64,000 nt of DNA from Rhodobacteraceae bacterium DSL-40. GTDB taxonomy: Bacteria; Pseudomonadota; Alphaproteobacteria; Rhodobacterales; Rhodobacteraceae. Positions 13,375 to 26,947 of the stretch are shown piece after piece; positions within the stretch are counted from its first letter, which is position 1; each line of letters begins with the position of its first letter. Both the position numbers and the translations under genes were made by a program. The stretch is from NCBI GenBank assembly GCA_003258405.1, contig QKPN01000009.1:1-64000 (forward strand), written 5' to 3'. Below the pieces are notes generated by a model. The model was not told where the DNA came from. It ran no database searches and saw only the letters and a list, made by a program, of their open reading frames with translations.

Positions 13375-14982
13375 TTACTCCACCAGTTCGATTTCGCTGA
13401 TCCGCCAGCTCTTGTCGAAGAAGGGCTCGAGCGGGCTGTAGAGGCGCAGGCCCACGAACCAGCCTTTCTCCGGATCGGTCTGGATCCAGTTGCCCCGGCC
13501 GACGCCCTCCGGCTGGGCGGGGGAGAACCAGATCGTGGTCGAGCCGTCGGCATCGGCTTCCGCCGCGGGCGAGGGGTAGCTCTGGCTGCCCGCCCGCGGA
13601 TAGCGCTGCGGCGTCGCCAGCATCGAGCGGGTCTGGTTGTCGTAGACCGTCAGCGACCAGAAGTTCGCCTCCGGGATCCCCTTCGGCAGCGTAACCTTGT
13701 AGGTCCTGGCCCCGTCGAAGTAGTTCCTGTCAGCATCTCGCGCGGTCAGGAGGTATTGCGAGCCCACCCCGGTCAGCCGCATCGCCATCGCCGGCGTGAT
13801 CCCGGTAATGCCGTAGAAGAAGGCCGTGCGGGCGTCCATCTGCCGGTAGCCGGTCGGCGGGAACGGCTTCGCGCCTTCCGACGTGATCTCCGGGATTGGT
13901 GTCTCGAACTCGTAGCCGCTCTCGAAGAGCATGTTGAACCACGACGAGTCCGGATAATAGAACCAGTCGGGGTCCCGCGGGTTCAGAAAGAGGTTGCGCG
14001 ACGCGGCATTCGCCACCGCCACGGCGTCCGTCATGATTCCCTTCATGCGCGCGTCCGGCGCGAAGGGCTGCCCCTTGACGATGCCGAGGGCGGCGAGCGG
14101 GCCCATCAGCTCGACGTCGAGCGAGGTCGCGGGCTCGTCCTGCACCACCTCGTTCAGCATCTCGAAGTAGCTCCAGTCGTTCGGCGGCAACGTGTTCATC
14201 ACCTTGCCGCTGCCCTCGTGGAAGACGGTCGCCGGTGGCTCGGCGATCCTTCCGAGCGTGGCGTCACCGGCGAGGAACTCGGCGATCGAAGTGCCGAAAC
14301 CGCCCGGCTTGTAGGGATAGACCTTCGTGTGCGCCTTGATCATGTCGACGGAAGGCCGCGGGTCACTGCCGTCCTTCAGGAAGGAGCGGCCGAACCAGAG
14401 AATCCCGGTGGTCCCGGCATGGGCGACGAAGTAGCCACCCTCCGGAAGCTTGCCTTCGTAGCCCGGCGGCACGATCAGGTACTTGCCGCCGAGACCGCGG
14501 TCGGGGCCGGGGTTGCCCATGTCGGTCACCCAGTGGAACCAGGCGTCCTGCACGATGCCGAGGAACTCGGGCGGCGATTCGATCACCACCGGGCCGTCAC
14601 TGAGGTCGAGCCAGCCCATGACGTAGATCGTGTCGGCGTTCGGGGTGAGGAACAGGGAGTTCGCATCCATCAACTCGGAGAACACCATCACCTCGTTCTC
14701 CTTGACGCCGGCCTCCTCCATGCCGCGGCGGAGGGCGCGGATGCTGACCCCGCGCAGGGTGTCCATGAAGGCGCGATAGGCAAAGGTGAAGTCGTGCTGG
14801 TCATAAAGCGCCCGAGCCGTCTCGTCGGTCGGAACGCCGTCCCTGAACTCGAATGCACCGCGTGAGGTCTCGACCAGATCAGGAGTGAACACCGACGGCG
14901 GGATTTCAGCCTCGCTCTGCGCGTGTAGCGGTGCCGCTAGGGCACAGACCGCCACGACAATGATCGGCCATTGTTTTAGCAT
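13375..14982 (-). CDS. Secreted DUF1254/DUF1214 protein (copy 1)
   Basis: A 535-aa exported protein with an N-terminal signal (MLKQWPIIVVAVCALAAPLHAQ), a DUF1254 domain over roughly the first half and a C-terminal DUF1214 domain. The latter ends with the typical GNWIQTDPEKGWFVGLRLY and a conserved SWR-EIELV terminus. The ATG at 14982 is chosen for the signal peptide; the open frame extends further upstream but lacks sense there. The family's activity is unknown. It is divergent from the AraC-type gene at 15134, which probably controls it. A second member lies at 17232 on the same strand. Confidence 0.85.
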   Translation of the reverse strand: MLKQWPIIVVAVCALAAPLHAQSEAEIPPSVFTPDLVETSRGAFEFRDGVPTDETARALYDQHDFTFAYRAFMDTLRGVSIRALRRGMEEAGVKENEVMVFSELMDANSLFLTPNADTIYVMGWLDLSDGPVVIESPPEFLGIVQDAWFHWVTDMGNPGPDRGLGGKYLIVPPGYEGKLPEGGYFVAHAGTTGILWFGRSFLKDGSDPRPSVDMIKAHTKVYPYKPGGFGTSIAEFLAGDATLGRIAEPPATVFHEGSGKVMNTLPPNDWSYFEMLNEVVQDEPATSLDVELMGPLAALGIVKGQPFAPDARMKGIMTDAVAVANAASRNLFLNPRDPDWFYYPDSSWFNMLFESGYEFETPIPEITSEGAKPFPPTGYRQMDARTAFFYGITGITPAMAMRLTGVGSQYLLTARDADRNYFDGARTYKVTLPKGIPEANFWSLTVYDNQTRSMLATPQRYPRAGSQSYPSPAAEADADGSTTIWFSPAQPEGVGRGNWIQTDPEKGWFVGLRLYSPLEPFFDKSWRISEIELVE

Positions 14983-15133
14983 AGGGTTCGTTCTCCGGTA
15001 TCTGCTGTCCGCGCGATAACGGACCGTGCATGGCGGCTTGCAACTCGCCGACGCACAAACAATTCTAAAGAGCCAGCGCCCCCCCCCGAACGGAAGCTCT
15101 GACGTCCGCTGCAAGTTTGTGAAGGTGCAGTCC

Positions 15134-16240
15134 GTGAATGGTCCCGCCACTCATTTTACGCCAGTCGCCGAAAAAACGTTCTCGCGGGGCTTCAGAGCAA
15201 GACCTGCGCCGGTCGTCTCCGTCGCGGTGATGGCGGGCATTCCGGCACTCGTTCGACACACGTTTGGCGACAAGGTCCTGAGGCAGGCGAACCGCGCGGC
15301 GATGCTCGATATCGAGTCGATCGAAGGCCAGGACTGCTTCATCCCACACGCGACGATGACCGGCTTTCTGGATGAGGTCGAAAGGCGGACGGGCGAGGCC
15401 AACCTTGGGCTGCTGATGGCGCCGCATCTCTCGATTGACCGTTATGGCCTCTGGGGCGACTATGTGCTGGCCGCCGAGACACTGCGTGACGCCCTCGCAC
15501 GGGCGATTTCCACCTTGGGTTATCACAGCCGGGGCGATCGGATGGAGGTCTCGGTCGAAGGAGGCTTGGCGCGAGCAAGCTACATCAACGCTGGCCGGGA
15601 AAACCCCGGCTACGCTCACGTTGCCAACGGCACCGCCGGCGTCCTGCTGAACCTGCTTCGAACCTTTCTGCCTGTCGACTGGAAGCCCCTCCTGCTGGAA
15701 TTGGACATTCCGCGGCCTCGCCGTGCGGCGGCGGTCTTTGAAGACGTCTTTGCCTGCCCGGTCGCATTCGACGCGGCGGCCATCTCCATCAGCTTCGACG
15801 CCCGTATGATGGATCGGCCAGCGGTGCGGCGACCGAAGGCGCAACTGATTACGTTCGAGGACCTGGCCCGCGCCCGATTTCAACCTGCGAGCCTCGAGGA
15901 TTTCCGGGGGGTCGTCCGAGCGCAGATCTGGGCACAGGTCCTGTCGGGCGAAGTCTCGATCGACAGTACGGCCCGGGCGCTCGGCACCAGCGTCCGATCG
16001 CTGCAACGCAGTCTTGATCGCGATGGATTGGAGTTCCGCGAAATGGTGAACTCCATCCGTGTCGAGCGCGCCAAGGAGCTCCTGTCTGGAACGAGAGTGT
16101 CGATAACGGAAATCTCGACCGAACTCGGCTACTCGGCCCCGGCGAATTTCGCGCGGGCGTTCCGCAAGGCGACCGGTCTGGCTCCGAAAGATTTTCGCCG
16201 CAACCTCGAAGGGGTTCTGCAGCGGCGCGACGGCAAATGA
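15134..16240 (+). CDS. AraC-family transcriptional regulator (OruR/Arabinose_bd-like)
   Basis: A 368-aa DNA-binding protein. The N-terminal region resembles the long ligand-binding domain of the ArgR/OruR-type AraC group, and the last 100 residues hold two helix-turn-helix units, including ISTELGYSAPANFARAFRKA followed by TGLAPKDFR. I chose the GTG at 15134 because GAAGGTG lies 7 bp upstream; an ATG at 15230 would lose conserved N-terminal sequence, and one at 15026 has no ribosome site. It is divergent from the first DUF1254 gene, so it may regulate both. The ligand is unknown. Confidence 0.82.
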   Translation: MNGPATHFTPVAEKTFSRGFRARPAPVVSVAVMAGIPALVRHTFGDKVLRQANRAAMLDIESIEGQDCFIPHATMTGFLDEVERRTGEANLGLLMAPHLSIDRYGLWGDYVLAAETLRDALARAISTLGYHSRGDRMEVSVEGGLARASYINAGRENPGYAHVANGTAGVLLNLLRTFLPVDWKPLLLELDIPRPRRAAAVFEDVFACPVAFDAAAISISFDARMMDRPAVRRPKAQLITFEDLARARFQPASLEDFRGVVRAQIWAQVLSGEVSIDSTARALGTSVRSLQRSLDRDGLEFREMVNSIRVERAKELLSGTRVSITEISTELGYSAPANFARAFRKATGLAPKDFRRNLEGVLQRRDGK

Positions 16241-17231: not shown

Positions 17232-18734
17232 TCAATTCGTTACCAGACTGATCTCGCCCGGCCGCCATGTCTGGTCGAACCAGGTCTCCAAGGGGCCGTA
17301 GAGGCGCAGGATCATGAACCAGCCCTTGCCGGGGATGGTCTGGACCCAGTTGTTCTCCATGCCGTCTGGCGCCGCTGGCCCGAAGTAGACGTCGACGGAC
17401 CCGTCGTCGTTGACCTTGACGTCCTTGTTCTGGCTGCTGACGCTCGGGAACCGCTGATCGGTCTGCAGCATCGACCGGGTCTGGGTGTCGTAGACGATGG
17501 CCGACCAGAACCGCTTGGCCGGGATGTCCTTCGGCAGATGCAGCCTGTAGGTCTTGCCCCCGTCGAAGGGGTTGCCGTCGGCATCGAGCGCGGTCCAGGG
17601 ATATTGCGAACCTTCGCCCACCATCTTCTCGGCCATCGCGGGCGTGACGCCGGTGGCGAGGAAGTAGAAGAACGCAGCGCCGTCCAGATTGGCGACGCCC
17701 GGCGACACTTCGAACTTGTAGCCGCCGAAGAACGGCTTGCGCCAGTTGCCGTCCGGATAGATGTAACCGTCCCGCTCACGCATCCGGTAGCCGAGGGCGC
17801 GGGCCGTCGTCGCCCCCACGTTCGCGGCGTCGGCAAGGATCTTCTTCATCCGCGCGTCCGGCGCGAAGGGCTTGCCCTTCTCGATGCCGAGCGAGGCGAA
17901 GAGGCCCAGCGTCGTCGGATCGGACCCGGTCGACGGTTCCTCCTGGATCGCCTCGTTCAGAAGTTCCCAGAACGAGTAGTCCTGCGGCGCGACGAAATTC
18001 GACGGCTCGCCCGAGAGGTTCACGTATTTCATCTCCGGAGGGCTGTCCGCCTCGCCGAGGCGATAGATCTTCAGCGTCTCCTTGACCTTCTCCACCCCCG
18101 GCTTGGGATCGCCCTCCGCGTTCAGGAAGGACCGGAACGGCATCCAGTTACCATAAGTGGTGGGGCGGACGACGAAATAACCGTCGGGCACGTCGCCGGT
18201 ATGGCCGGGTGGCAGGAGCAGGTACTTCCCGCCCTTGCCCTTGTCCGCGCCGGTGATGCCCACGTCGGCCACCCAGCGATACCACATGTCATCGATCAGC
18301 CCGAGCACGTCCGGCGGGGTCTCGACCACCAGCGGCCCGTCGGTCGTGTCGAGCCAGATGAAGCTGTAGACGACGTTGTCGTTGGCGGTCAGTTCGATGG
18401 TCTTTGAATCCACCAGGTCTTCCCAGATCACGTCGGTCGTGTTCAGGGGGCCGTATTCCTTCAGCGTATTCCGCATCGAGACCTGGTTCACGATGGGGAT
18501 GGCCAGCAGATAGGCCTGAAGCGCCCGCGACCGGTCGAGATTGTCGTAGATCTTGTCGGTCGACCAATCCGTCGGAACGCCGTCCTCCAGCCGCAGCAGG
18601 CCGATCGACGTCTCGAGGAGCTCAGGGCTCGCGACGCCTGGGGCTACATCCGTCGTCATCTTGTAGTTTTCGGCCGCTGCGGATGTCACGAGCAGCGCGA
18701 CAGCCGAGACGGCACCGAGAAATCTAACCTTCAT
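17232..18734 (-). CDS. Secreted DUF1254/DUF1214 protein (copy 2)
   Basis: A 500-aa paralogue of the protein at 13375. A signal peptide (MKVRFLGAVSAVALLVTSAAA) is followed by DUF1254, and DUF1214 ends with NNWVQTIPGKGWFMILRLYG and a TWRPGEISLV terminus. The shared blocks TPPDVLGLIDDMW, PFAPDARMKKIL and GSQYPWTALDADGNPFDGGK show the relationship, but the two have clearly diverged, so this is not a recent duplication. In-frame ATGs at 18740 and 18755 are alternative starts. The function is unknown. Confidence 0.85.
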   Translation of the reverse strand: MKVRFLGAVSAVALLVTSAAAENYKMTTDVAPGVASPELLETSIGLLRLEDGVPTDWSTDKIYDNLDRSRALQAYLLAIPIVNQVSMRNTLKEYGPLNTTDVIWEDLVDSKTIELTANDNVVYSFIWLDTTDGPLVVETPPDVLGLIDDMWYRWVADVGITGADKGKGGKYLLLPPGHTGDVPDGYFVVRPTTYGNWMPFRSFLNAEGDPKPGVEKVKETLKIYRLGEADSPPEMKYVNLSGEPSNFVAPQDYSFWELLNEAIQEEPSTGSDPTTLGLFASLGIEKGKPFAPDARMKKILADAANVGATTARALGYRMRERDGYIYPDGNWRKPFFGGYKFEVSPGVANLDGAAFFYFLATGVTPAMAEKMVGEGSQYPWTALDADGNPFDGGKTYRLHLPKDIPAKRFWSAIVYDTQTRSMLQTDQRFPSVSSQNKDVKVNDDGSVDVYFGPAAPDGMENNWVQTIPGKGWFMILRLYGPLETWFDQTWRPGEISLVTN

Positions 18735-19411
18735 GAGCATAGTCCCAGTCTCCATTTCTTGGGAGCCACGTCCGACGCTAGGCGGGATCGCGCTGGCGGA
18801 ACATGTGTCAGATCAAGCATTCGAACCGGCGATGCGCATCCGTTGGCAGCGAGCACGCCGGCTGCGGATTTCGAGGCCGGACGGGAGCGTCGCGACAGCG
18901 ACAGGGTGGAAATCTTCATGGGCAATCTCCCGAGTCTCTTTGGCAGTCTCCGGCCCGAATCCGAAGGCTCGCGCAGAACATACAGCCGTAGGCTTTGCGG
19001 CACTTGTTTCTGGGGGACATCCTTTGCAATGCGCGCACGTGCCGCACCTCTCCAGCCTCGGGCCACCGTTCTCGCCCGGTTGCCACCGCTGCTGCGCCCT
19101 TGACGCGCGCGTCGGAGGGCAGGGCGATCGACCCGGACGATCGGTCTCCGGGCGCCCATGTGTCCCAAACCGGGATGTTTGCCCGGCTTGACCGCGCCGC
19201 GGGAGGCTCCGGTCGGCGCCGCTTCCCGCCCGTTGCCGGCCAGCCGCTCGCCGCGCTCGCTCCGGCTGGGCCGCTCCTGTGGAATGCGTGCAGGGGCTTG
19301 GGGGGGCGCCATGGATCAGGACGGTGTCCATCCCGGTTTCCACACGCGACACCCTGCACGCGCCATGACGGGCCCGGTTCCGCGGATCAAGTTTTCCTGA
19401 ACGGCAATTGG
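18735..19411. other. Intergenic stretch with no recognisable gene
   Basis: About 680 bp between the second DUF1254 gene and the fasciclin promoter. Open frames exist on both strands but are short, Arg/Pro/Ser-rich and match nothing I recognise, as expected by chance in high-GC DNA. Confidence 0.5.
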
Positions 19412-19438
19412 TGATCCGATGGTCACCAGCCTCCGTAA
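19412..19438 (+). promoter_or_regulatory. Sigma-E (RpoE/ChrR type) promoter for the fasciclin gene
   Basis: TGATCC at 19412-19417, 18 bases, then TAA at 19436. The form is the same as at the three other sites near rpoE. TGATC(C/T) is the -35 element known for Rhodobacter RpoE. The predicted start is near 19445, 60 bp before the fasciclin ATG. Confidence 0.65.
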
Positions 19439-19506
19439 CCTGATGGAAGGGCAGCGGACGACCGCCCTTTTCATAAGACCTCGGATTGAAACAAGGGAGA
19501 ATTGAA

Positions 19507-19992
19507 ATGTTGCGCAAGGTCATGATGGCGACGGCAGCGTCGGTCCTGATGGCGGGCTCGGCCCTCGCTCAGGACGCATCCACCGATATCGTCGATACGG
19601 CTGTGGCGGCCGGCGATTTCTCGACGCTGGTTGCCGCCGTTGAGGCGGCCGGGCTGGTGGAGACCCTGAAGGGCGACGGCCCGTTTACTGTCTTTGCGCC
19701 GACGGATGAGGCCTTCGCCGCGCTTCCCGAAGGCACGGTCGACACGCTGTTGATGCCCGAGAACAAGGATCAGCTGGTGTCTATCCTGACCTATCACGTT
19801 GTCCCGGGGGCGGTCATGTCCTCGGACCTGACCGAGGGCATGAGTGCAGCCACCGTTCAGGGCGCCGATGTCACGTTTTCGCTGGACGGCGGGCCCAAGG
19901 TCAATGACGCCAATATCACCGGCCCCGACATCGCGGCGTCGAACGGTGTCATCCACGTCATCGACAAGGTGATCATGCCTCCGGCAAACTGA
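19507..19992 (+). CDS. Secreted fasciclin (FAS1) domain protein
   Basis: A 161-aa exported protein made of a signal peptide ending ALAQ and one FAS1 domain. The H1 motif region is [19 protein letters not shown], followed by YHVVPGAV, and the H2 end is [19 protein letters not shown]1 proteins act in adhesion or at the cell surface; relatives are often stress-induced in alphaproteobacteria. AGGGAGA lies about 8 bp before the ATG at 19507. The upstream TGATCC-N18-TAA promoter places it in the singlet-oxygen regulon, which is an inference. Confidence 0.9.
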
Positions 19993-20017
19993 TCGCGGCC
20001 GGGCGACCACGGCCAAA

Positions 20018-20040
20018 GCCCCGGGCATCAAGCCCGGGGC
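20018..20040 (+). terminator. Hairpin between fasciclin and tspO genes
   Basis: GCCCCGGGC at 20018-20026 and GCCCGGGGC at 20032-20040 form a perfect 9-bp stem with a 5-base loop between two convergent genes. It has no long T run, so it is probably a bidirectional terminator of moderate strength. Confidence 0.6.
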
Positions 20041-20064
20041 CTTCCGGGCGGGATGCGGCCGGGT

Positions 20065-20778
20065 TCAGACCGCTTTCTTCCGCGCGGACAGTACGAAGTT
20101 CATGCCAACAAGCACCGCGATTCCCAGCACGCACAGGCCGACGATCAACCGATCCCCCGCAACGACATTGGCGGCGATCACCCCGATCAGCGCCCAGACC
20201 ACCCCGGCGCGATAGGTCCAGACGCGCGGCCGGGCCGCCGCAACCGCGACCGAGACAACCATCACCAGCAATATCAGCAGGATTGCCGCAACGCGCGGCG
20301 GCAGGATCCCGTACCCCGTGAGAACCACCGAAACGGCTACACCAGAGGCCGCCGTGAGCCAGCCGGCATAGAGGCCAAGAGACCCCCATTCCCGCCAGCC
20401 GCTCCCCACGCGGTACATGGCCAGCACAGCTCCCGCCGCCATGGGCAGGATCATGGCCGTCGCCAGCACCGGAGAATTCATCGCGGCATCGATCCAGAAG
20501 ACGCCGATGAACAGGCTGAGGCCAAGGGGCCATAGCGTGTGCTTCCATGCCGGCATCGTCGCGGGCCGCCACAGCGCCCAGGCCGCGGAGGCGATCAGGC
20601 CGATATAGATCACCCCCCAGATCGAAAACGCCCAGCCCGCAGGCTGGGCGGGCCAGCGGTCGACCTGTACCGGGAAGCTCTCGGGATAGAAGCCACCAAA
20701 GCCGTTTGACAGGAACGGTGATACGGCAAAGGCGATCGTCAGCGCCAGAATAGCCAGACGGGCGGATCGGTCATTCAT
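20065..20778 (-). CDS. TspO/MBR-related tryptophan-rich membrane protein
   Basis: A 237-aa integral membrane protein with about seven hydrophobic helices. The aromatic-rich block PAGWAFSIWGVIYIGL resembles the start of the TspO/tryptophan-rich sensory protein fold, although the chain is longer than the 160-aa TspO of Rhodobacter. Possible ligands are tetrapyrroles. It lies downstream of the CFA methyltransferase operon on the same strand, separated by a photolyase relic, and may once have been cotranscribed with it. Confidence 0.72.
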   Translation of the reverse strand: MNDRSARLAILALTIAFAVSPFLSNGFGGFYPESFPVQVDRWPAQPAGWAFSIWGVIYIGLIASAAWALWRPATMPAWKHTLWPLGLSLFIGVFWIDAAMNSPVLATAMILPMAAGAVLAMYRVGSGWREWGSLGLYAGWLTAASGVAVSVVLTGYGILPPRVAAILLILLVMVVSVAVAAARPRVWTYRAGVVWALIGVIAANVVAGDRLIVGLCVLGIAVLVGMNFVLSARKKAV

Positions 20779-20842
20779 CTCAAGATATCCATTGTCGTGA
20801 TGTGGGCGTGTTCAGGTGCAGCAAAGGCGCGCGTCTGACCTC

Positions 20843-21101
20843 TCAGAAGGACCGGATGTTCTCAACCCCTGCCTGCGCCTCTGTGCTGGGGCTGCAGGCG
20901 AACCCGTCCAGCCATCGCCGGCAACAATCTCCATCCGGGTCGCAACCTTCCGCGAGAAGCTCCGGGATGAAGAGGTCGAAACAGATCGCCCGCGCCCCGC
21001 AACGCGCGACCGCCGCGAAACTTCACGTCCCGCATGGCCGGCGCGGGATTGCCGCACTGCGGGAAATCGCGCGTCAGCCACAGGGTGCTGGGCGCCGCCA
21101 T
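20843..21101 (-). pseudogene. Relic of a deoxyribodipyrimidine photolyase gene
   Basis: The ATG at 21101 directly follows the CFA gene stop (TGAATG). The first frame reads STLWLTRDFPQCGNPAP, which resembles photolyase N-termini such as ILWLRRDLRL-DNPAL. A different frame then reads FIPELLAEGCDPDGDCCRRW, matching the photolyase C-terminal block -FDPDGDYVRRWLPEL. Some 400 residues are missing between them and the frame changes, so this looks like the two ends of phr joined by a large deletion. A photolyase gene is a known member of the Rhodobacter RpoE regulon, which fits the operon position. The assignment rests on two short matches. Confidence 0.45.
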
Positions 21102-22268
21102 TCAGGCGGCCTCACCGAGATGCGCCAGTTCCACCTGCACCACATCGCAGCGCCCGGTGGCAAAGGCCGCGGCGCAGCCGTCGAGGTAGAACTGCCAGCC
21201 GCGCAGGAAAGCCTCTCCATGGCCCAGCCGGGCGATGCGCTCGCGCTCTGCATGCATCCGTTCGGACCAGATACGGCAGGTGCGGGCGTAATCCTGCCCG
21301 AAGGCATGGCTGCCCACCACCCGCAGCCCGGCCTTCTGCGCCTGATGCGCGATCGCCGCGTCACAGGGCAGCATTCCGCCCGGAAACACATGCTGGCGGA
21401 TGAAATCCGAGCGGCGGCGATAGACCGAGAATTCGGCATCAGGCACCGTGATCGCCTGCAACACCGCCCGTCCACCCGGCGCCAGCCGGGACTTGAGGGT
21501 GGCGAAATAGGCGGGCCAGTAGCGTTCGCCCACGGCCTCGACCATCTCGATGGAGACAATATTGTCGAAACGCCCGGTGACATCCCGGTAGTCCTGCAGC
21601 CGCACCTCGGCGCGACCGTCAAGGCGGGCATCGGCATAGCCCTTCTGCGAGGGCGACAGGGTGATGGCGGTCACGCGATGACCACGCTCGGCTGCGGCCT
21701 CGGCAAAGCCGCCCCAGCCGCAGCCGATTTCCAGCAGGCTTTCGCCCTGAGACAGCCTCGACAGGATGCGCTGGTTCTTGCGCGCCTGGGCGCGTTCCAG
21801 ATCGTCGCCGGGGGCGAACAGGGCCGAGGAATAGGTCATGCCCGGATCGAGCCAGAGGTGGTAGAATTCGTTGCCGACATCGTAATGGCTCCGGATGTTG
21901 CGCGCCGCTCCACGCCGGCTGTTCATCCGCACCAGCCGGTCCACGAGCCGCATCCGCCAGGCCTGCAACCGCCCCGGCTCGCCCCAGCCGGCAAACCTGC
22001 CAAGGTTGCGCAAGGCAATGGACAGCACGCCTTCCAGCGTCTCGCTGTGCCAGTCCCCGGCAATCCAGGCCTCGCCAAGACCGACGTCGCCCCGCAGCGC
22101 AAGGCGTTGCAACAGACGCCAGTCACGGATCTGGAGGTCGACCTGCGGGCCATGCTGGCCAAAGCTGTGCCGCGTTCCTTCCGGCGTTGTCAGGAGGAGC
22201 CGACCCCCAGCGATGCCTTCCAGGGCGGAGAAGAAGCGGGGTCGAAGCGTGGCTGTCGCGAGGCTCAT
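21102..22268 (-). CDS. Cyclopropane-fatty-acid-synthase-type SAM methyltransferase
   Basis: A 388-aa enzyme that transfers a methyl or methylene group from S-adenosylmethionine to unsaturated acyl chains of membrane phospholipids. The SAM-binding loop is LLEIGCGWGGFAE, preceded by the family block HYDVGNEFYHLWLDPGMTYS; the later IEMVEAVGERYWPAYF and RRRSDFIRQHVFPGG are also typical. It overlaps the DUF1365 gene by 4 bp. This gene trio resembles sigma-E-linked loci that Rhodobacter studies connect with cyclopropane, methylated or furan fatty acids, which scavenge singlet oxygen. I cannot tell which product is made here. Confidence 0.88.
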   Translation of the reverse strand: MSLATATLRPRFFSALEGIAGGRLLLTTPEGTRHSFGQHGPQVDLQIRDWRLLQRLALRGDVGLGEAWIAGDWHSETLEGVLSIALRNLGRFAGWGEPGRLQAWRMRLVDRLVRMNSRRGAARNIRSHYDVGNEFYHLWLDPGMTYSSALFAPGDDLERAQARKNQRILSRLSQGESLLEIGCGWGGFAEAAAERGHRVTAITLSPSQKGYADARLDGRAEVRLQDYRDVTGRFDNIVSIEMVEAVGERYWPAYFATLKSRLAPGGRAVLQAITVPDAEFSVYRRRSDFIRQHVFPGGMLPCDAAIAHQAQKAGLRVVGSHAFGQDYARTCRIWSERMHAERERIARLGHGEAFLRGWQFYLDGCAAAFATGRCDVVQVELAHLGEAA

Positions 22269-23044
22269 AGGCTGATTTCCTGATCGGGTGGGGCGGGAGG
22301 ACGACGATAGGACGCGCCCTTGAGCTTGAGCCGCAGCGCATGCCAGTAGATCTGCGCGATCACCCGCAGCGCGCCACCGGGACGGCGAAATGCACTGGAG
22401 AAGATCTCCTGGCGGGTCAGCGGCAACAGGGCGCCGCTCATCGCAGTGTCTATGCCGTCCGCACCATGGCTATGGCCGATGCGGATGGCGATACGCTCGG
22501 CGCTGAGGGCAAAGCTGAAACGGTATTCGCCCGCCACGTCCTGGTAGGGCGAGACGTGAAAGACCTTCTGCGCGGTCAGCCGGCTTTCGGCCGTGATGGG
22601 CTTCAGATCCTGGCGGGCCAGCAGATAGCTGTGACGCTCCCCGAAGGTGTTGTTGACCTCGGCAATCACGGCGATCAGCGCATCGCCCTCGAGGATGAGC
22701 CAGAAACTGACCGGATTGAACCAGAATCCCATGAAACGGGGCTGCGTCAGCAGCGCCAGCACGCGCCCTGGCCGAGGCTCGATGCCCGCCGTGGCAAATT
22801 GCGCCCAAGCCCATGCGGCCCCCAGGCCCGCGCCACGCGGGCCGCCGTGGTCGGCATCGTGAAAGGCGATCAGGCTGAAGCGATTATGCCCCATCAGCCG
22901 GGGCGGGCGAAAGGTCTCGGGGGCCAGCAGCACATGATCGGCATGGGTGGCAAAGGCGTGCCGCAGGTCACCGCGCCGGGCATGGGTGATCCGTGCCCGC
23001 ATCGCCAGCACCTCGCCACGCGCCAGCCGCGACGCCAGTGTCAT
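22265..23044 (-). CDS. DUF1365 family protein
   Basis: A 259-aa protein of the DUF1365 family, which almost always travels with a FAD amine-oxidase-like gene and a CFA synthase gene, as here. Signature segments are TQPRFMGFWFNPVSFWLI and the middle block VHNTFGE-like EVNNTFGERHSYLL, followed by FHVSPYQDVAGEYRF. It overlaps its neighbours by 4 bp on each side, so translation is coupled. The role is in modified fatty acid synthesis by association; no catalytic residues are established. Confidence 0.87.
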   Translation of the reverse strand: MTLASRLARGEVLAMRARITHARRGDLRHAFATHADHVLLAPETFRPPRLMGHNRFSLIAFHDADHGGPRGAGLGAAWAWAQFATAGIEPRPGRVLALLTQPRFMGFWFNPVSFWLILEGDALIAVIAEVNNTFGERHSYLLARQDLKPITAESRLTAQKVFHVSPYQDVAGEYRFSFALSAERIAIRIGHSHGADGIDTAMSGALLPLTRQEIFSSAFRRPGGALRVIAQIYWHALRLKLKGASYRRPPAPPDQEISL

Positions 23045-24324
23045 GGCAGCACCTGCATGGGCAGGAGGCGCCGCGCGATGCGCACGGCACTGGCAAATCC
23101 GTCCTCATGGAAACCGTTGCGCAGCCAGGCTCCGGCAAACCAGGTGTTGCGATTGCCCTGCATCGCCCCGATCCGCGCTTGCGCGTCCAGCGCCGCCTGA
23201 TCGAAGACCGGATGGCGGAACGTCACCTCGTCATAGACGAGCCTTGGATCTATCCGCTCGCCGGGGTTCAGGCTGACGAAAAGCGGATCGGCCTCGGGGA
23301 TGTTCTGGAGCCGGTTCATCCAGTAGCTCACGCCGACGCCCGCTCCCCCCGCATCGCCGCGGCTGACCCAGGAACTCCAGCAGCGGCGGCGGCGGGGCAT
23401 CACGGATGCATCGGCATGCAGGACCGTGCGGTTCGGCTGAAACCGGATCGCCGAGAGGGCGGCATGCTCTTCGCCATCGGCATCGGCGAGCAGTGCCAGC
23501 GCCTGATCGGCATGCGTGGCAAGGATGACCTGGTCGAACACTTCGCCTTCGGCCCCCTCGGCACGCAGGGTGACGCCGCCGTCCCGGCGCGTGATCGCCC
23601 GCACCCCTGTAGCCGGCCGCAGATCGACCCCGGACCGGACAAGGGCTGCCACCAAACGCTCGACATAGGCCATCGACCCGCCGTCGACCGTCCACCACTG
23701 GTGATGCTGAGCCCGTGACATAAGCCCGTGGTTGCGCATGAAGCGTACCAGCGCGAGCGCCGGAAACGCGCCGATGTCCTGGTCTGGTGTCGACCAGATC
23801 GCGCCGCAAAAGGGATAGAGGTAATGGTCCCGAAACCTTGCCCCGAGCCGCATCGCCTCGATCAGGTCCGCAATCGTCAGGCCGGGTGCAGCCGCGACCT
23901 GGGCTTCGGCCCCGTCGTTGAAGCGCAGGATATCGAGGATCATGCGGTGGAACCGCGGGTCGATGAGGTTGCGCCGCTGCCCGAACAGCGCATCTGCGGA
24001 CCGCAGCGCATATTCCACCCGCCCGCCCTCGAGCGAGACGCCGAAGCTCATGTCGCTCCTGGTCACCGGCACGTCGAGATCGCGGAACATCGCCGTCAGA
24101 TGCGGGTAATTCACATAATTGAAGACGATGAAGCCGGTATCAACCGGCTGGTCGCCGTTCTTTCCGGCAATGACGGTGCGGGCGTGCCCGCCAAGCCGGG
24201 GCGAGGCCTCGTACAAGGTCACCTGGTGCTGGCGGGACAACAGCCTCGCGGCGGCCAGACCGGAGATTCCGCCGCCGACAATGGCAACTCTCTGAGGGGC
24301 ACCTTTGAGCTGATCGAAGGGCAT
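23041..24324 (-). CDS. FAD-dependent oxidoreductase (amine oxidase/desaturase-like)
   Basis: A 427-aa flavoprotein with an N-terminal dinucleotide-binding motif VAIVGGGISGLAAARLL and the NAD(P)-binding_8/amine-oxidase fold. The gene heads the operon FAD protein-DUF1365-CFA methyltransferase. Homologues in Rhodobacter are sigma-E targets implicated in furan or modified fatty acid synthesis, perhaps as an acyl desaturase. The ATG at 24324 follows GGAG by about 8 bp and lies downstream of a TGATCC-N18-TAG promoter. The longer frame to 24378 would start inside that promoter and is rejected. Confidence 0.87.
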   Translation of the reverse strand: MPFDQLKGAPQRVAIVGGGISGLAAARLLSRQHQVTLYEASPRLGGHARTVIAGKNGDQPVDTGFIVFNYVNYPHLTAMFRDLDVPVTRSDMSFGVSLEGGRVEYALRSADALFGQRRNLIDPRFHRMILDILRFNDGAEAQVAAAPGLTIADLIEAMRLGARFRDHYLYPFCGAIWSTPDQDIGAFPALALVRFMRNHGLMSRAQHHQWWTVDGGSMAYVERLVAALVRSGVDLRPATGVRAITRRDGGVTLRAEGAEGEVFDQVILATHADQALALLADADGEEHAALSAIRFQPNRTVLHADASVMPRRRRCWSSWVSRGDAGGAGVGVSYWMNRLQNIPEADPLFVSLNPGERIDPRLVYDEVTFRHPVFDQAALDAQARIGAMQGNRNTWFAGAWLRNGFHEDGFASAVRIARRLLPMQVLP

Positions 24325-24350
24325 GAATTCTCCACGCTTGTTGTCAGTTC

Positions 24351-24377
24351 CTACGCAGGTCTGCCGCCTCTGGATCA
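24351..24377 (-). promoter_or_regulatory. Sigma-E promoter for the FAD/DUF1365/CFA operon
   Basis: On the minus strand TGATCC (24377-24372) is followed by 18 bases and TAG (24353-24351). The spacing equals that of the divergent rpoE promoter 28 bp away. The start codon is at 24324. Confidence 0.7.
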
Positions 24378-24405
24378 TTCACGGCGAAATATTTTCCACC
24401 CACAG

Positions 24406-24432
24406 TGATCCGCCGGGCAGGTCACGACGTAG
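24406..24432 (+). promoter_or_regulatory. Sigma-E autoregulatory promoter of rpoE-chrR
   Basis: TGATCC at 24406-24411, an 18-base spacer, then TAG at 24430-24432. It matches the Rhodobacter RpoE-dependent rpoE promoter. The predicted transcript start is near 24438, which leaves about 100 bp before the ATG at 24539 and argues against starts further upstream. Confidence 0.72.
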
Positions 24433-24538
24433 CTCGGTTATGGACACCTCGATTGCGCTCGTCGGGCAACAGCCCCATAAAAAGCCGATGCCGCCGGCCG
24501 CGCCAGTGGGCCCTGGCTGGATGGGAGGGCCGCGACTG

Positions 24539-25102
24539 ATGACTGAGCCGGTGCCAGAGGCGCTGTCCGAGTTGACCCGCGACCTGCTTGAGGTCCGCGA
24601 CCGCCGGAACCGCGAAGCGTTCGGCCGGCTTTTCGACCATTTCGCGCCCCGGCTGAAGGCGATGATGCTGCGCGGCGGACTGCGGGATGGGACCGCTGAG
24701 GATGTCGTGCAGGACGTGATGCTGGCGGTCTGGCACAAGGCCTGGCAGTTCGATCCGCACCGCGCCGATGCCGCAGGCTGGGTCTATGCCATCGCCCGCA
24801 ACCGCCGCATCGATATGGCCCGCCGCCGTCCTCTCGCGCAACCCGAGGAAATGCCCGAGCTCGAAAGCCTCGAACCCGACGCGGCGCAGATCCTCGCGCT
24901 CCGGCAGGAGGCCGGACATCTTGCCGAGGCGCTGTCTCGTCTTGCACCCGATCAGGCCGAAGCGCTCCGCGCCGCCTATTTTGACGACCTCCCCCACAGC
25001 CGCATCAGCGAGATGACGGGTCTGCCCCTGGGCACGATCAAGTCCCGCATCCGCCTCGGCCTTGACCGGCTGAGGCACGAGCTGAGGAAGATTGCCCCGT
25101 GA
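24539..25102 (+). CDS. rpoE: ECF sigma factor RpoE (singlet-oxygen response)
   Basis: A 187-aa ECF sigma factor. The sigma-2 region includes EDVVQDVMLAVWHKAWQFDP and the -10-binding helix GWVYAIARNRRIDMARR; the sigma-4 helix-turn-helix is SRISEMTGLPLGTIKSRIRL. The following gene encodes a ChrR-type zinc anti-sigma factor, so this is the Rhodobacter-type sigma-E released by singlet oxygen. The ATG at 24539 is preceded by GGGAGGGC; in-frame ATGs at 24440 and 24488 sit too close to the promoter. The stop overlaps the chrR GTG. Confidence 0.92.
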   Translation: MTEPVPEALSELTRDLLEVRDRRNREAFGRLFDHFAPRLKAMMLRGGLRDGTAEDVVQDVMLAVWHKAWQFDPHRADAAGWVYAIARNRRIDMARRRPLAQPEEMPELESLEPDAAQILALRQEAGHLAEALSRLAPDQAEALRAAYFDDLPHSRISEMTGLPLGTIKSRIRLGLDRLRHELRKIAP

Positions 25103-25731
25103 CCGAGATCAATCACCATATCCCCGACGACGTGCTCGACACCTATCGTGCGGGCACGCTGCCCCATGCCTTCGCGGTGGTTGTGGCCGCGCATCTGTCG
25201 CTCTGCGATGAGTGCCGGGCGCGGATCGAGGCGGCGGACATGATCGGCGGCGTGCTTTTGAACGGCGCTGAGGGCGTGGCGCTCCGCGCAGGCGCCCGGG
25301 ATCGGATGATGGCCGCCCTTGATGCACCGCCCCCGCCGCCGCTTCCGCGCGGATCCGGCGTTTTTCCCGCGCCCGTGATGGCGGAGCTTGGCGGGCAGCC
25401 GCCGAAATGGCGGATGCTGGGCGGGGGCATCCGTCAGCAGATCCTGTCGGCCGACCGCGAAGGGTCTCTTCGCCTGCTCTATATCCCGCCGGGGCGGGCG
25501 GTTCCCGAACACGGGCACCGTGGGATGGAACTGACGCTGGTGCTCCAAGGCAGCTTTTCCGACAGCGAAGGCGCCTTTCATCGGGGCGATGTCGAGGCCG
25601 CGCATGACGCGATCGACCATCAGCCCATCGCCGGCGCCGGTGCGCCCTGCATCTGCCTGGCCGCCACCGACGCGCCTCTGCGCTTCCATGCCCTGGTGCC
25701 GCGCCTTCTGCAGCCGATCTTCCGGATCTGA
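25099..25731 (+). CDS. chrR: Zinc-dependent anti-sigma factor ChrR
   Basis: A 210-aa cytoplasmic anti-sigma factor that binds RpoE until singlet oxygen or organic peroxide triggers release. The N-terminal ZAS domain has His6/His7, His32, Cys36 and Cys39 (AHLSLCDEC). The C-terminal cupin domain has His138, His140, Glu144 and His174, each shifted by three from the residues described in Rhodobacter ChrR, and Cys184/Cys186 match the Cys pair there. The GTG start at 25099 overlaps the rpoE stop (GTGA), giving coupled translation. Confidence 0.93.
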   Translation: MTEINHHIPDDVLDTYRAGTLPHAFAVVVAAHLSLCDECRARIEAADMIGGVLLNGAEGVALRAGARDRMMAALDAPPPPPLPRGSGVFPAPVMAELGGQPPKWRMLGGGIRQQILSADREGSLRLLYIPPGRAVPEHGHRGMELTLVLQGSFSDSEGAFHRGDVEAAHDAIDHQPIAGAGAPCICLAATDAPLRFHALVPRLLQPIFRI

Positions 25732-25734
25732 GAG

Positions 25735-26469
25735 ATGGAGTTCGCGGGCAGCCGTATCTGGATCATCGGTGCCAGCGCCGGGATCGGCGCGGCGCTCGCC
25801 CGCGCCCTGGCCGGGCGCGGCGCGCAGCTCATCCTGTCGGCGCGCGACGGTGATGCCCTGGCATCCCTGGCGGCAGACTGCGCCGGTGCGCGGGTCGAAC
25901 CGCTGGATCTCGCGCAACCGGGCGCACTGGCGGCCCTGACCGCCCGTCTGGCGGAAGAGACGCCGCTCGATGCGGTGATCTGCACCGCCGCACTCTATGA
26001 GCCCGGCAGGGTCGAGGATATCGACCCGGTGCAGGTGGAAGAGATCGTGCGGGTCAATGTCCTGGGCGCGTTTGACGTCGCGCGCCTCTGTCCGGCCATT
26101 CTGCGCGATGGCGGGCAACTGGTGTTGTTCGGATCGGTGGCGGGCTATCTTGGCCTTCCGGGCGGACAGCCCTACTCGGCGACCAAGGCGGCCGTGAACA
26201 ATCTGGCCGAAACCCTGGTGGTCGAACTGGCACCCCGCGTCCATGTGCGGCTTGTCTGCCCGGGCTTCGTTCGCACGCGCCTGACAGAGAAGAACCGCTT
26301 TGCCATGCCGGCAATCATCACCCCCGACGAGGCGGCAGAGGCCGTTCTGCGCGGCATGGGGCGGCACGGTTTCGAGATCCACTTCCCACGACGCTTCACG
26401 CTGGCGATGAAACTCTTGCGTATCCTGCCCTATGGCCTGTCGCTGCGCCTGACGCGGCGTCTGGGCTGA
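25735..26469 (+). CDS. Short-chain dehydrogenase/reductase
   Basis: A 244-aa NAD(P)-dependent SDR. The N-terminal cofactor loop is GASAGIGAALA, and the catalytic region shows FGSVAGYLGLPGGQPYSATK with Ser, Tyr and Lys in the usual spacing. The gene follows chrR by 3 bp and is therefore in the rpoE transcript. An SDR gene is also part of the Rhodobacter RpoE regulon. The substrate is unknown; membrane lipid or aldehyde reduction is possible. Confidence 0.88.
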   Translation: MEFAGSRIWIIGASAGIGAALARALAGRGAQLILSARDGDALASLAADCAGARVEPLDLAQPGALAALTARLAEETPLDAVICTAALYEPGRVEDIDPVQVEEIVRVNVLGAFDVARLCPAILRDGGQLVLFGSVAGYLGLPGGQPYSATKAAVNNLAETLVVELAPRVHVRLVCPGFVRTRLTEKNRFAMPAIITPDEAAEAVLRGMGRHGFEIHFPRRFTLAMKLLRILPYGLSLRLTRRLG

Positions 26470-26472
26470 GAC

Positions 26473-26877
26473 TCAGGCCAGACGCCCCGACATCACGGCG
26501 ACCCCGGCCCAGGCTGAAAAGCCGGTCAGCACCGTGCCCCAGATCGAATCCACGATCACCTGTTCCCAGGACCAGGCTGCAAGGGTGGCATAGTTGGTCA
26601 TCTCGTAGGTGCCATAGCAGAGAAGGCCCAGCACCATGCCCCCTATAAGGGCCTGCATGGGATCAGCGGCCTTGAGCGCGGGCCAGGACACCATCCACAA
26701 CAGGCCCGCGACATAGACGAGATAGAACAGCGCCGCAGGACCCAGCCGCAAGGGCTCGGCCAGCAGATCGCCGACATGGCGCTCGAATATCGGCCGAATG
26801 AGAAACTTGATGCCCAGAAAGTCGAGGCCGAGGAACACCCCTGCCGTGAGAAGATAAAGGGTTCCCGCTTGCATCAT
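26473..26877 (-). CDS. DUF2177 membrane protein
   Basis: A 134-aa integral membrane protein of the DUF2177 family with four hydrophobic helices. Typical segments are FLGLDFLGIKFLIRPIFER and the later GLLCYGTYEMTNYATL. The adjacent ATGs at 26877 and 26874 are equivalent starts; GGAGCG lies about 10 bp upstream. It converges on the SDR gene with 3 bp between stops and has its own TGATCT-N18-TAT promoter. DUF2177 genes recur in ChrR-RpoE islands; the function is not known. Confidence 0.85.
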   Translation of the reverse strand: MMQAGTLYLLTAGVFLGLDFLGIKFLIRPIFERHVGDLLAEPLRLGPAALFYLVYVAGLLWMVSWPALKAADPMQALIGGMVLGLLCYGTYEMTNYATLAAWSWEQVIVDSIWGTVLTGFSAWAGVAVMSGRLA

Positions 26878-26920
26878 CGCACGCCGCTCCAGTCTCGTCA
26901 GAAATCTCTCTCTGCCCTCC

Positions 26921-26947
26921 ATACGGCGGCAAACGGGCGTCAGATCA
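26921..26947 (-). promoter_or_regulatory. Sigma-E promoter of the DUF2177 gene
   Basis: The minus strand carries TGATCT (26947-26942), 18 bases, then TAT (26923-26921). The predicted start is near 26913, about 36 bp before the ATG. T at the sixth -35 position is accepted in the Rhodobacter RpoE consensus. Confidence 0.6.

Follow-up and report, generated by a model that had tools for sequence, protein, structure and literature searches.

The first 64,000 nucleotides of contig QKPN01000009.1 (assembly GCA_003258405.1) of Rhodobacteraceae bacterium DSL-40, hereafter the window, carry rpoE, which encodes a sigma-E factor of the extracytoplasmic function (ECF) group ECF11, next to chrR, which encodes its zinc anti-sigma factor. 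An earlier note, made from the sequence alone, had placed four sigma-E promoters of the form TGATC(C/T)-18 bases-TA around these genes. A search of the window with TGATCY-N18-TA returned exactly these four sites:

19412..19437, + strand: putative sigma-E promoter of the fasciclin gene (TGATCC-N16-CGTA, full 10/10 boxes)
24352..24377, - strand: putative sigma-E promoter of the FAD/DUF1365/CFA operon (TGATCY-N16-CGTA; divergent site in relatives)
24406..24431, + strand: putative sigma-E promoter of rpoE-chrR, for autoregulation (TGATCY-N16-CGTA; site before rpoE in relatives)
26922..26947, - strand: putative sigma-E promoter of the DUF2177 gene (TGATCT-N16-CGTA)

Each site lies just ahead of a start codon, as had been claimed, with 27 nt between the end of the motif and the FAD gene, 44 nt for DUF2177, 69 nt for fasciclin and 107 nt for rpoE. 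All four also share a longer core, TGATCY-N16-CGTA, that the earlier note overlooked, and the real strength of the promoter pattern arises because all four read CGTA. This core equals the published RpoE/ECF11 promoter (TGATCC(N15)GCGTA; TGATCC-N16-CGTA): the former is the RpoE box given upstream of the Rhodobacter sphaeroides sRNA Pos19 in the consulted part of PMC5036791, and TGATCCnnnnnnnnnnnnnnnnCGTAnnnn is the box that the excerpted text of PMC5507510 reports from ChIP-seq of the Pseudomonas syringae RpoE homologue. Together with the conservation described below, this indicates that the four sites are very probably promoters for ECF11 RpoE that form one regulon island, fasciclin gene included.

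The island comprises the following genes:

24539..25102, + strand: rpoE, ECF11 sigma factor (PDB 2q1z, E 2.8e-43)
25099..25731, + strand: chrR, zinc anti-sigma factor with a cupin-like domain, GTG start (TIGR02451; PDB 2z2s)
25735..26469, + strand: short-chain dehydrogenase (SDR) of the RSP_1087 type, third gene of rpoE-chrR-SDR (Pfam PF00106)
26473..26877, - strand: DUF2177 membrane protein (Pfam PF09945)
23041..24324, - strand: FAD-dependent amine-oxidase-like protein of the RSP_1091 type, first gene of its operon (Pfam PF01593)
22265..23044, - strand: DUF1365 protein of the RSP_1090 type (Pfam PF07103)
21102..22268, - strand: cyclopropane-fatty-acid-synthase-like methyltransferase, CFA (Pfam CMAS, E 1.5e-75)
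20065..20778, - strand: 237-aa multi-helix membrane protein, candidate TspO-like fold (gene order in relatives; structure model)
19507..19992, + strand: fasciclin (FAS1) protein with a signal-peptide-like start, judged by eye (Pfam PF02469, E 1.6e-41; homologous to R. sphaeroides Fdp/RSP_1409)

Apart from the 237-aa membrane protein, each of these genes was confirmed by a Pfam match. The sigma and anti-sigma factors are, by sequence, homologues of RpoE and ChrR, the pair of the solved R. sphaeroides complex. RpoE has the Pfam sigma r2 and r4_2 domains, and its best PDB match, 2q1z, is well separated from the runner-up (3e-16). Its likeliest start codon lies at 24539, some 107 nt past the motif; an upstream in-frame ATG at 24440 would leave nearly no leader. 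ChrR scores 192.8 bits against TIGR02451 (cut-off 124.5) and matches PDB 2z2s at E 1.6e-58, whereas its 147 bits against the narrower NF051881 fall below the 300-bit cut-off of that model. The residues that coordinate zinc at the two sites (His6, His31, Cys35 and Cys38; His141, His143, Glu147 and His177; PMC6852236, in the part consulted) appear conserved, since the HH, HLSLCDEC and HGHRGME segments and a late His of the window protein align by eye to 2z2s. The core lipid genes (FAD/RSP_1091, DUF1365/RSP_1090, CFA and SDR/RSP_1087) lie downstream of the sites, as judged by gene order. Near the island, the - strand also carries a Pfam-confirmed DUF1254/DUF1214-type protein (17232-18755) and, by the look of its translation, a second one (13375-15150).

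Agreement between the four sites had been called hard to explain by chance; for the pattern as originally written the case is weak, and it is the CGTA core that makes it strong. Scanning the genome (4.37 Mb, 190 contigs) with TGATCY-N18-TA gave 72 matches, which corresponds to approximately 1.0 per 64 kb and P(≥4) of 0.02; in shuffled versions of the window the mean was 0.85 and the maximum 3, and 0/100 shuffles reached four. Forty-seven of the 72 fall within called genes; seven are both intergenic by gene call and no more than 110 nt ahead of a start, four of these being the window sites. These calls come from a home-made gene caller that makes errors; one match called close and intergenic (L057) actually lies inside a phage-capsid gene. 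Like L057, the two other matches of this kind outside the window lack CGTA; they precede a CcmF-like gene (labelled by look; 34 nt, L051) and an NDUS4 respiratory gene (32 nt, L089), housekeeping genes that are not known to us as regulon members. The scan proposed in the earlier note is therefore a poor regulon finder, and we rejected it as such, because 65 of its 72 matches are intragenic or not within 110 nt ahead of a called start.

The longer core behaves differently. TGATCY-N16-CGTA occurs 14 times in the genome, four of them within one 7.5-kb stretch. At the density outside the window, 0.15 matches are expected per 64 kb and 0.018 per 7.5 kb, giving probabilities of 1.8e-5 for at least four in the former and 3.9e-9 in the latter. 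The genome total at this gap is raised only mildly, as gaps 15 to 21 gave 9, 14, 3, 12, 7, 1 and 13 matches (59 in total). Of the ten sites outside the window, eight lie inside called genes and two are intergenic, and none has a same-strand called start within 300 nt, the closest being at 305 and 339 nt. One-step variants (TSAWCC-N16-CGTA) added five matches, none with such a start within 300 nt, and were discarded. Because no further convincing site was found in the genome among the patterns scanned, the visible sigma-E regulon appears to be a single 7.5-kb island, a new but modest detail. Separately, an exact 10/10 site (L050, 1501-1526; C46:30257 of this genome) has as its TGA the stop codon of what looks like a cupin-like gene and points toward a convergent oxidoreductase-like gene; it could be a chance match or the promoter of a small RNA.

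Conservation was assessed in 61 genomes including that of the window. Any ChrR match was found in 36 and a close ChrR in 18, where close means E 1e-43 or better, a threshold chosen after the table was seen. A site with at least nine of the ten box positions (≥9/10) precedes rpoE in 18/18 close-ChrR loci, the window included, and a divergent ≥9/10 site lies near it in 14 of them; in a fifteenth locus (G005) a site precedes the FAD gene about 0.9 kb away. Across the first 1500 bases of these 18 loci, 35 matches at ≥9/10 occur at gap 16, compared to 0-2 at eight other gaps. In G026 and G005, rpoE-chrR-SDR faces DUF2177, as in the window; the DUF2177 homologue of G005 is preceded by an exact site, and in G026 the nearest site is 0.9 kb upstream. 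Among 12 more distant ChrR loci, three (L201, L202 and L204) have rpoE with a site, and in L209 the site falls inside the rpoE match.

Six further distant loci (L205, L206, L208, L210, L211 and L212, from G014, G001, G018, G007, G025 and G009, respectively) contain a ChrR-like gene of 26-38% identity that has its own exact TGATCC-N16-CGTA promoter and no rpoE match in front. In each of these genomes the best RpoE-like sigma factor (39-47%) is on a separate contig, and these sigma genes are without the motif except for one 9/10 match (L253). It looks like the sigma/anti-sigma pair has come apart in these chrR-only loci.

The fasciclin protein matches PDB 1w7d ('BETA-IG-H3/FASCICLIN'), which we take to be R. 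sphaeroides Fdp, at E 4.8e-58. Among the best 80 of at least 585 confirmed fasciclin loci, 39 have a ≥9/10 site at gap 16, 16 of them exact, compared to 2, 6, 0, 1, 6, 1, 0 and 1 at gaps 12-15 and 17-20. Thirteen of the 80 come, by title, from planctomycete, Bacteroidota-type, Gemmatimonadota and Anaerolineales organisms (phyla presumed in part), and all of these score 8 or less. Exact boxes at gap 17 occur in 5/80; therefore, promoter spacing may vary by one base across species, and the earlier observation of always exactly 18 bases is right for the four window sites but does not extend to other species.

For the 61 genomes, 64 of 68 listed fasciclin matches from 35 genomes were analyzed, those left out being fragments or extra stretches (three in G032, one in G018). 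Twelve of the 64 have the site at gap 16, compared to 0-2 at eight other gaps, and all 12 belong to close-ChrR genomes. By genome, the site is found in 11/16 with a close ChrR and 0/19 without (Fisher P 1.0e-5; 2.3e-5 excluding the genome of the window); loosening the criterion to any ChrR match at E 1e-3 changes the counts to 11/26 and 0/9 (P 0.033), all of these P values being optimistic as the genomes are related. Within the genus, window included, the corresponding counts are 3/3 and 0/7. Linkage is also repeated: fasciclin directly follows chrR with its own exact site in G019 and G023, and it lies 1.8 kb from rpoE-chrR in L169, approximately 11 kb in G012 and approximately 16 kb in G030. 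RpoE and ChrR are both near fasciclin in only one of the 80 named loci (L169), many of which are cut by contig ends. These data suggest that fasciclin is a recurrent, not constant, partner of the rpoE-chrR locus, a new but modest detail, and that its control by sigma-E is common, not universal.

The published record is consistent with this. RSP_1409 (beta-Ig-H3/fasciclin) is one of 15 R. sphaeroides RpoE regulon rows in Table 1 of PMC7074977, the part of that article used here, with log2 changes of 2.8 after 7 min and 4.5 after 45 min of photooxidative stress; the table also lists photolyase, rpoHII, folE2 and cfaS. The proposal that fasciclin is not a standard regulon member thus fails. Azospirillum brasilense belongs to a different alphaproteobacterial lineage. 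The fasciclin of its strain Sp7 is reported to be governed by RpoE-ChrR, as proposed for the window, and to be tied to flocculation (Dubey 2021, as cited in the consulted section of PMC10949492).

Several observations weigh against a sigma-E island that includes fasciclin. Five of the 16 close-ChrR genomes have no fasciclin site. One of the five is G026, which has the closest ChrR (83%) and carries its fasciclin gene on another contig. A site is missing from two of the 12 distant ChrR loci (L203 and L207), and in one of these two chrR has an rpoE-like gene as its neighbour. In the genome of the window, photolyase, rpoH, folE2 and a second CFA gene have no ≥9/10 gap-16 site (L174-L179) and were rejected as visible targets; the photolyase, rpoHII and folE2 sites expected from R. 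sphaeroides are thus missing, although these are not defining for the sigma/anti-sigma pair. RSP1409 has been described as Fdp, an adherence factor strongly repressed by Prr, whose loss reportedly reduces adherence of R. sphaeroides 100-fold (PMC7561615, 2020). In that regulation study, light did not significantly affect fdp in the wild type and had a 3-fold effect in a PrrA mutant, and the word RpoE is absent.

The fasciclin site could be a chance match beside real rpoE, FAD operon and DUF2177 promoters. It is 5 kb away from the promoter of rpoE, amid a long region with no called gene, in a genome with 72 loose matches, and G026 lacks it; yet its boxes are a full 10/10, orthologues in other genera have the site at a similar distance, and in relatives it is confined to genomes with a close ChrR, so that we consider a chance match there very unlikely. 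That the sites could instead be read by a different ECF sigma factor of the cell is suggested by the several ECF sigma genes in relatives and by the six relatives with the motif before a chrR-like gene and no rpoE alongside. The motif nevertheless precedes rpoE itself at every close-ChrR locus and is identical to the published RpoE box, which makes another sigma factor highly improbable. Finally, chance agreement of short boxes throughout a TGATC-rich genome would fit the expected number of loose matches and the similar genome counts at gaps 16, 18 and 21, but not the CGTA core, the clustering, the positions before starts and the conservation across genomes, and its probability is close to negligible. 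We are thus highly confident, from sequence comparison, that this Rhodobacter relative, apparently non-phototrophic, has a canonical ECF11 RpoE-ChrR regulon condensed into a single island. A search of its genome for photosynthetic reaction-centre (Photo_RC) proteins found none.

The membrane protein encoded at 20065-20778 extends the picture. Its structure model (pLDDT 90) has eight helices, and a Foldseek search placed RsTspO chains at ranks 1, 2, 4, 5 and 8, with probabilities of 0.90-0.97 and TM scores (target) of 0.58-0.68; the best E value was 0.59, with none reaching 0.001. This is suggestive of a TspO fold, not proof. The protein has no Pfam match even at E 5, the TspO profile included, none in NCBIfam and no PDB sequence match. 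Homologues occur in 17/61 genomes. The gene is probably the last of the FAD-DUF1365-CFA sigma-E operon, because its homologue directly follows a CFA or SDR gene in G026, G019 and G023 (the G023 copy is split into two pieces that lie in different frames). The gap after CFA is 323 nt in the window and approximately 70 nt in G026. Between the two window genes, at 20820-21095 on the - strand, short reading frames out of line with one another are possibly a decayed small gene. A ≥9/10 site right before the TspO-like gene is absent in 14/16 loci, and one of the two loci that reach 9/10 also does so at another gap; with 2/16 loci at this score, the gene is by this comparison not a sigma-E target on its own.

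Compared to the R. sphaeroides RpoE-ChrR (ECF11) regulon (RSP_1087-1093 and RSP_1409), the window is alike in sigma/anti-sigma homology and promoter box, in the FAD/DUF1365-type genes adjoining rpoE-chrR, and in having SDR and fasciclin members. With R. sphaeroides Fdp, the fasciclin protein of the window shares a single FAS1 domain and a putative signal peptide. Unlike in R. sphaeroides, the island itself includes the fasciclin, DUF2177 and TspO-like genes, SDR follows chrR, and the photolyase, rpoH, folE2 and second CFA genes have no site. The regulon of that species also responds to organic peroxides, and singlet oxygen leads to ChrR turnover that needs proteins, some of which make furan fatty acids (PMC6852236, in part).

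A scheme is proposed that builds on three kinds of observation (the promoter sites, how they are conserved across genomes, and the homologies of the proteins) and borrows the following from relatives: the nature of the signal, the turnover of ChrR, how far the operons extend, and activation from the four promoters. ChrR would bind and hold RpoE until singlet oxygen or organic peroxides lead to its loss, and the freed RpoE would then transcribe from the four TGATCY-N16-CGTA promoters, amplifying itself and its targets. The four units would be rpoE-chrR-SDR, the divergent FAD/DUF1365/CFA/TspO-like operon, which would modify membrane lipids, the DUF2177 gene, and the gene for the fasciclin adhesion protein, which would be secreted and promote adhesion. 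Since the genome yielded no Photo_RC protein, the signal may originate from organic peroxides or from light that acts on porphyrins. A bolder possibility, which we regard as rather doubtful, is that in this non-phototrophic lineage the sigma-E response has been reduced as a whole to a single island, self-contained and transferable, where lipid modification, a porphyrin-removing or -binding TspO-fold protein and a secreted adhesin act jointly, such that membrane damage is sensed, the sensitiser is disposed of and cells clump away from light.

The regulon island is real, correctly located and biologically sound, and it is mostly ordinary, with small new details. It adds another species to those with this well-studied oxidative-stress regulon. 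For the role of the regulon's unexplained membrane genes, the TspO-like operon gene offers a concrete lead; for R. capsulatus, TspO-driven porphyrin efflux has been discussed as a possible defence against photooxidative stress (PMC7074977, in the section consulted). The 80 named loci and 61 genomes provide comparative support for the fasciclin adhesion gene as a recurrent sigma-E target, which ties the stress response to cell adherence, and the research lines on fdp and on RpoE could thereby be joined.

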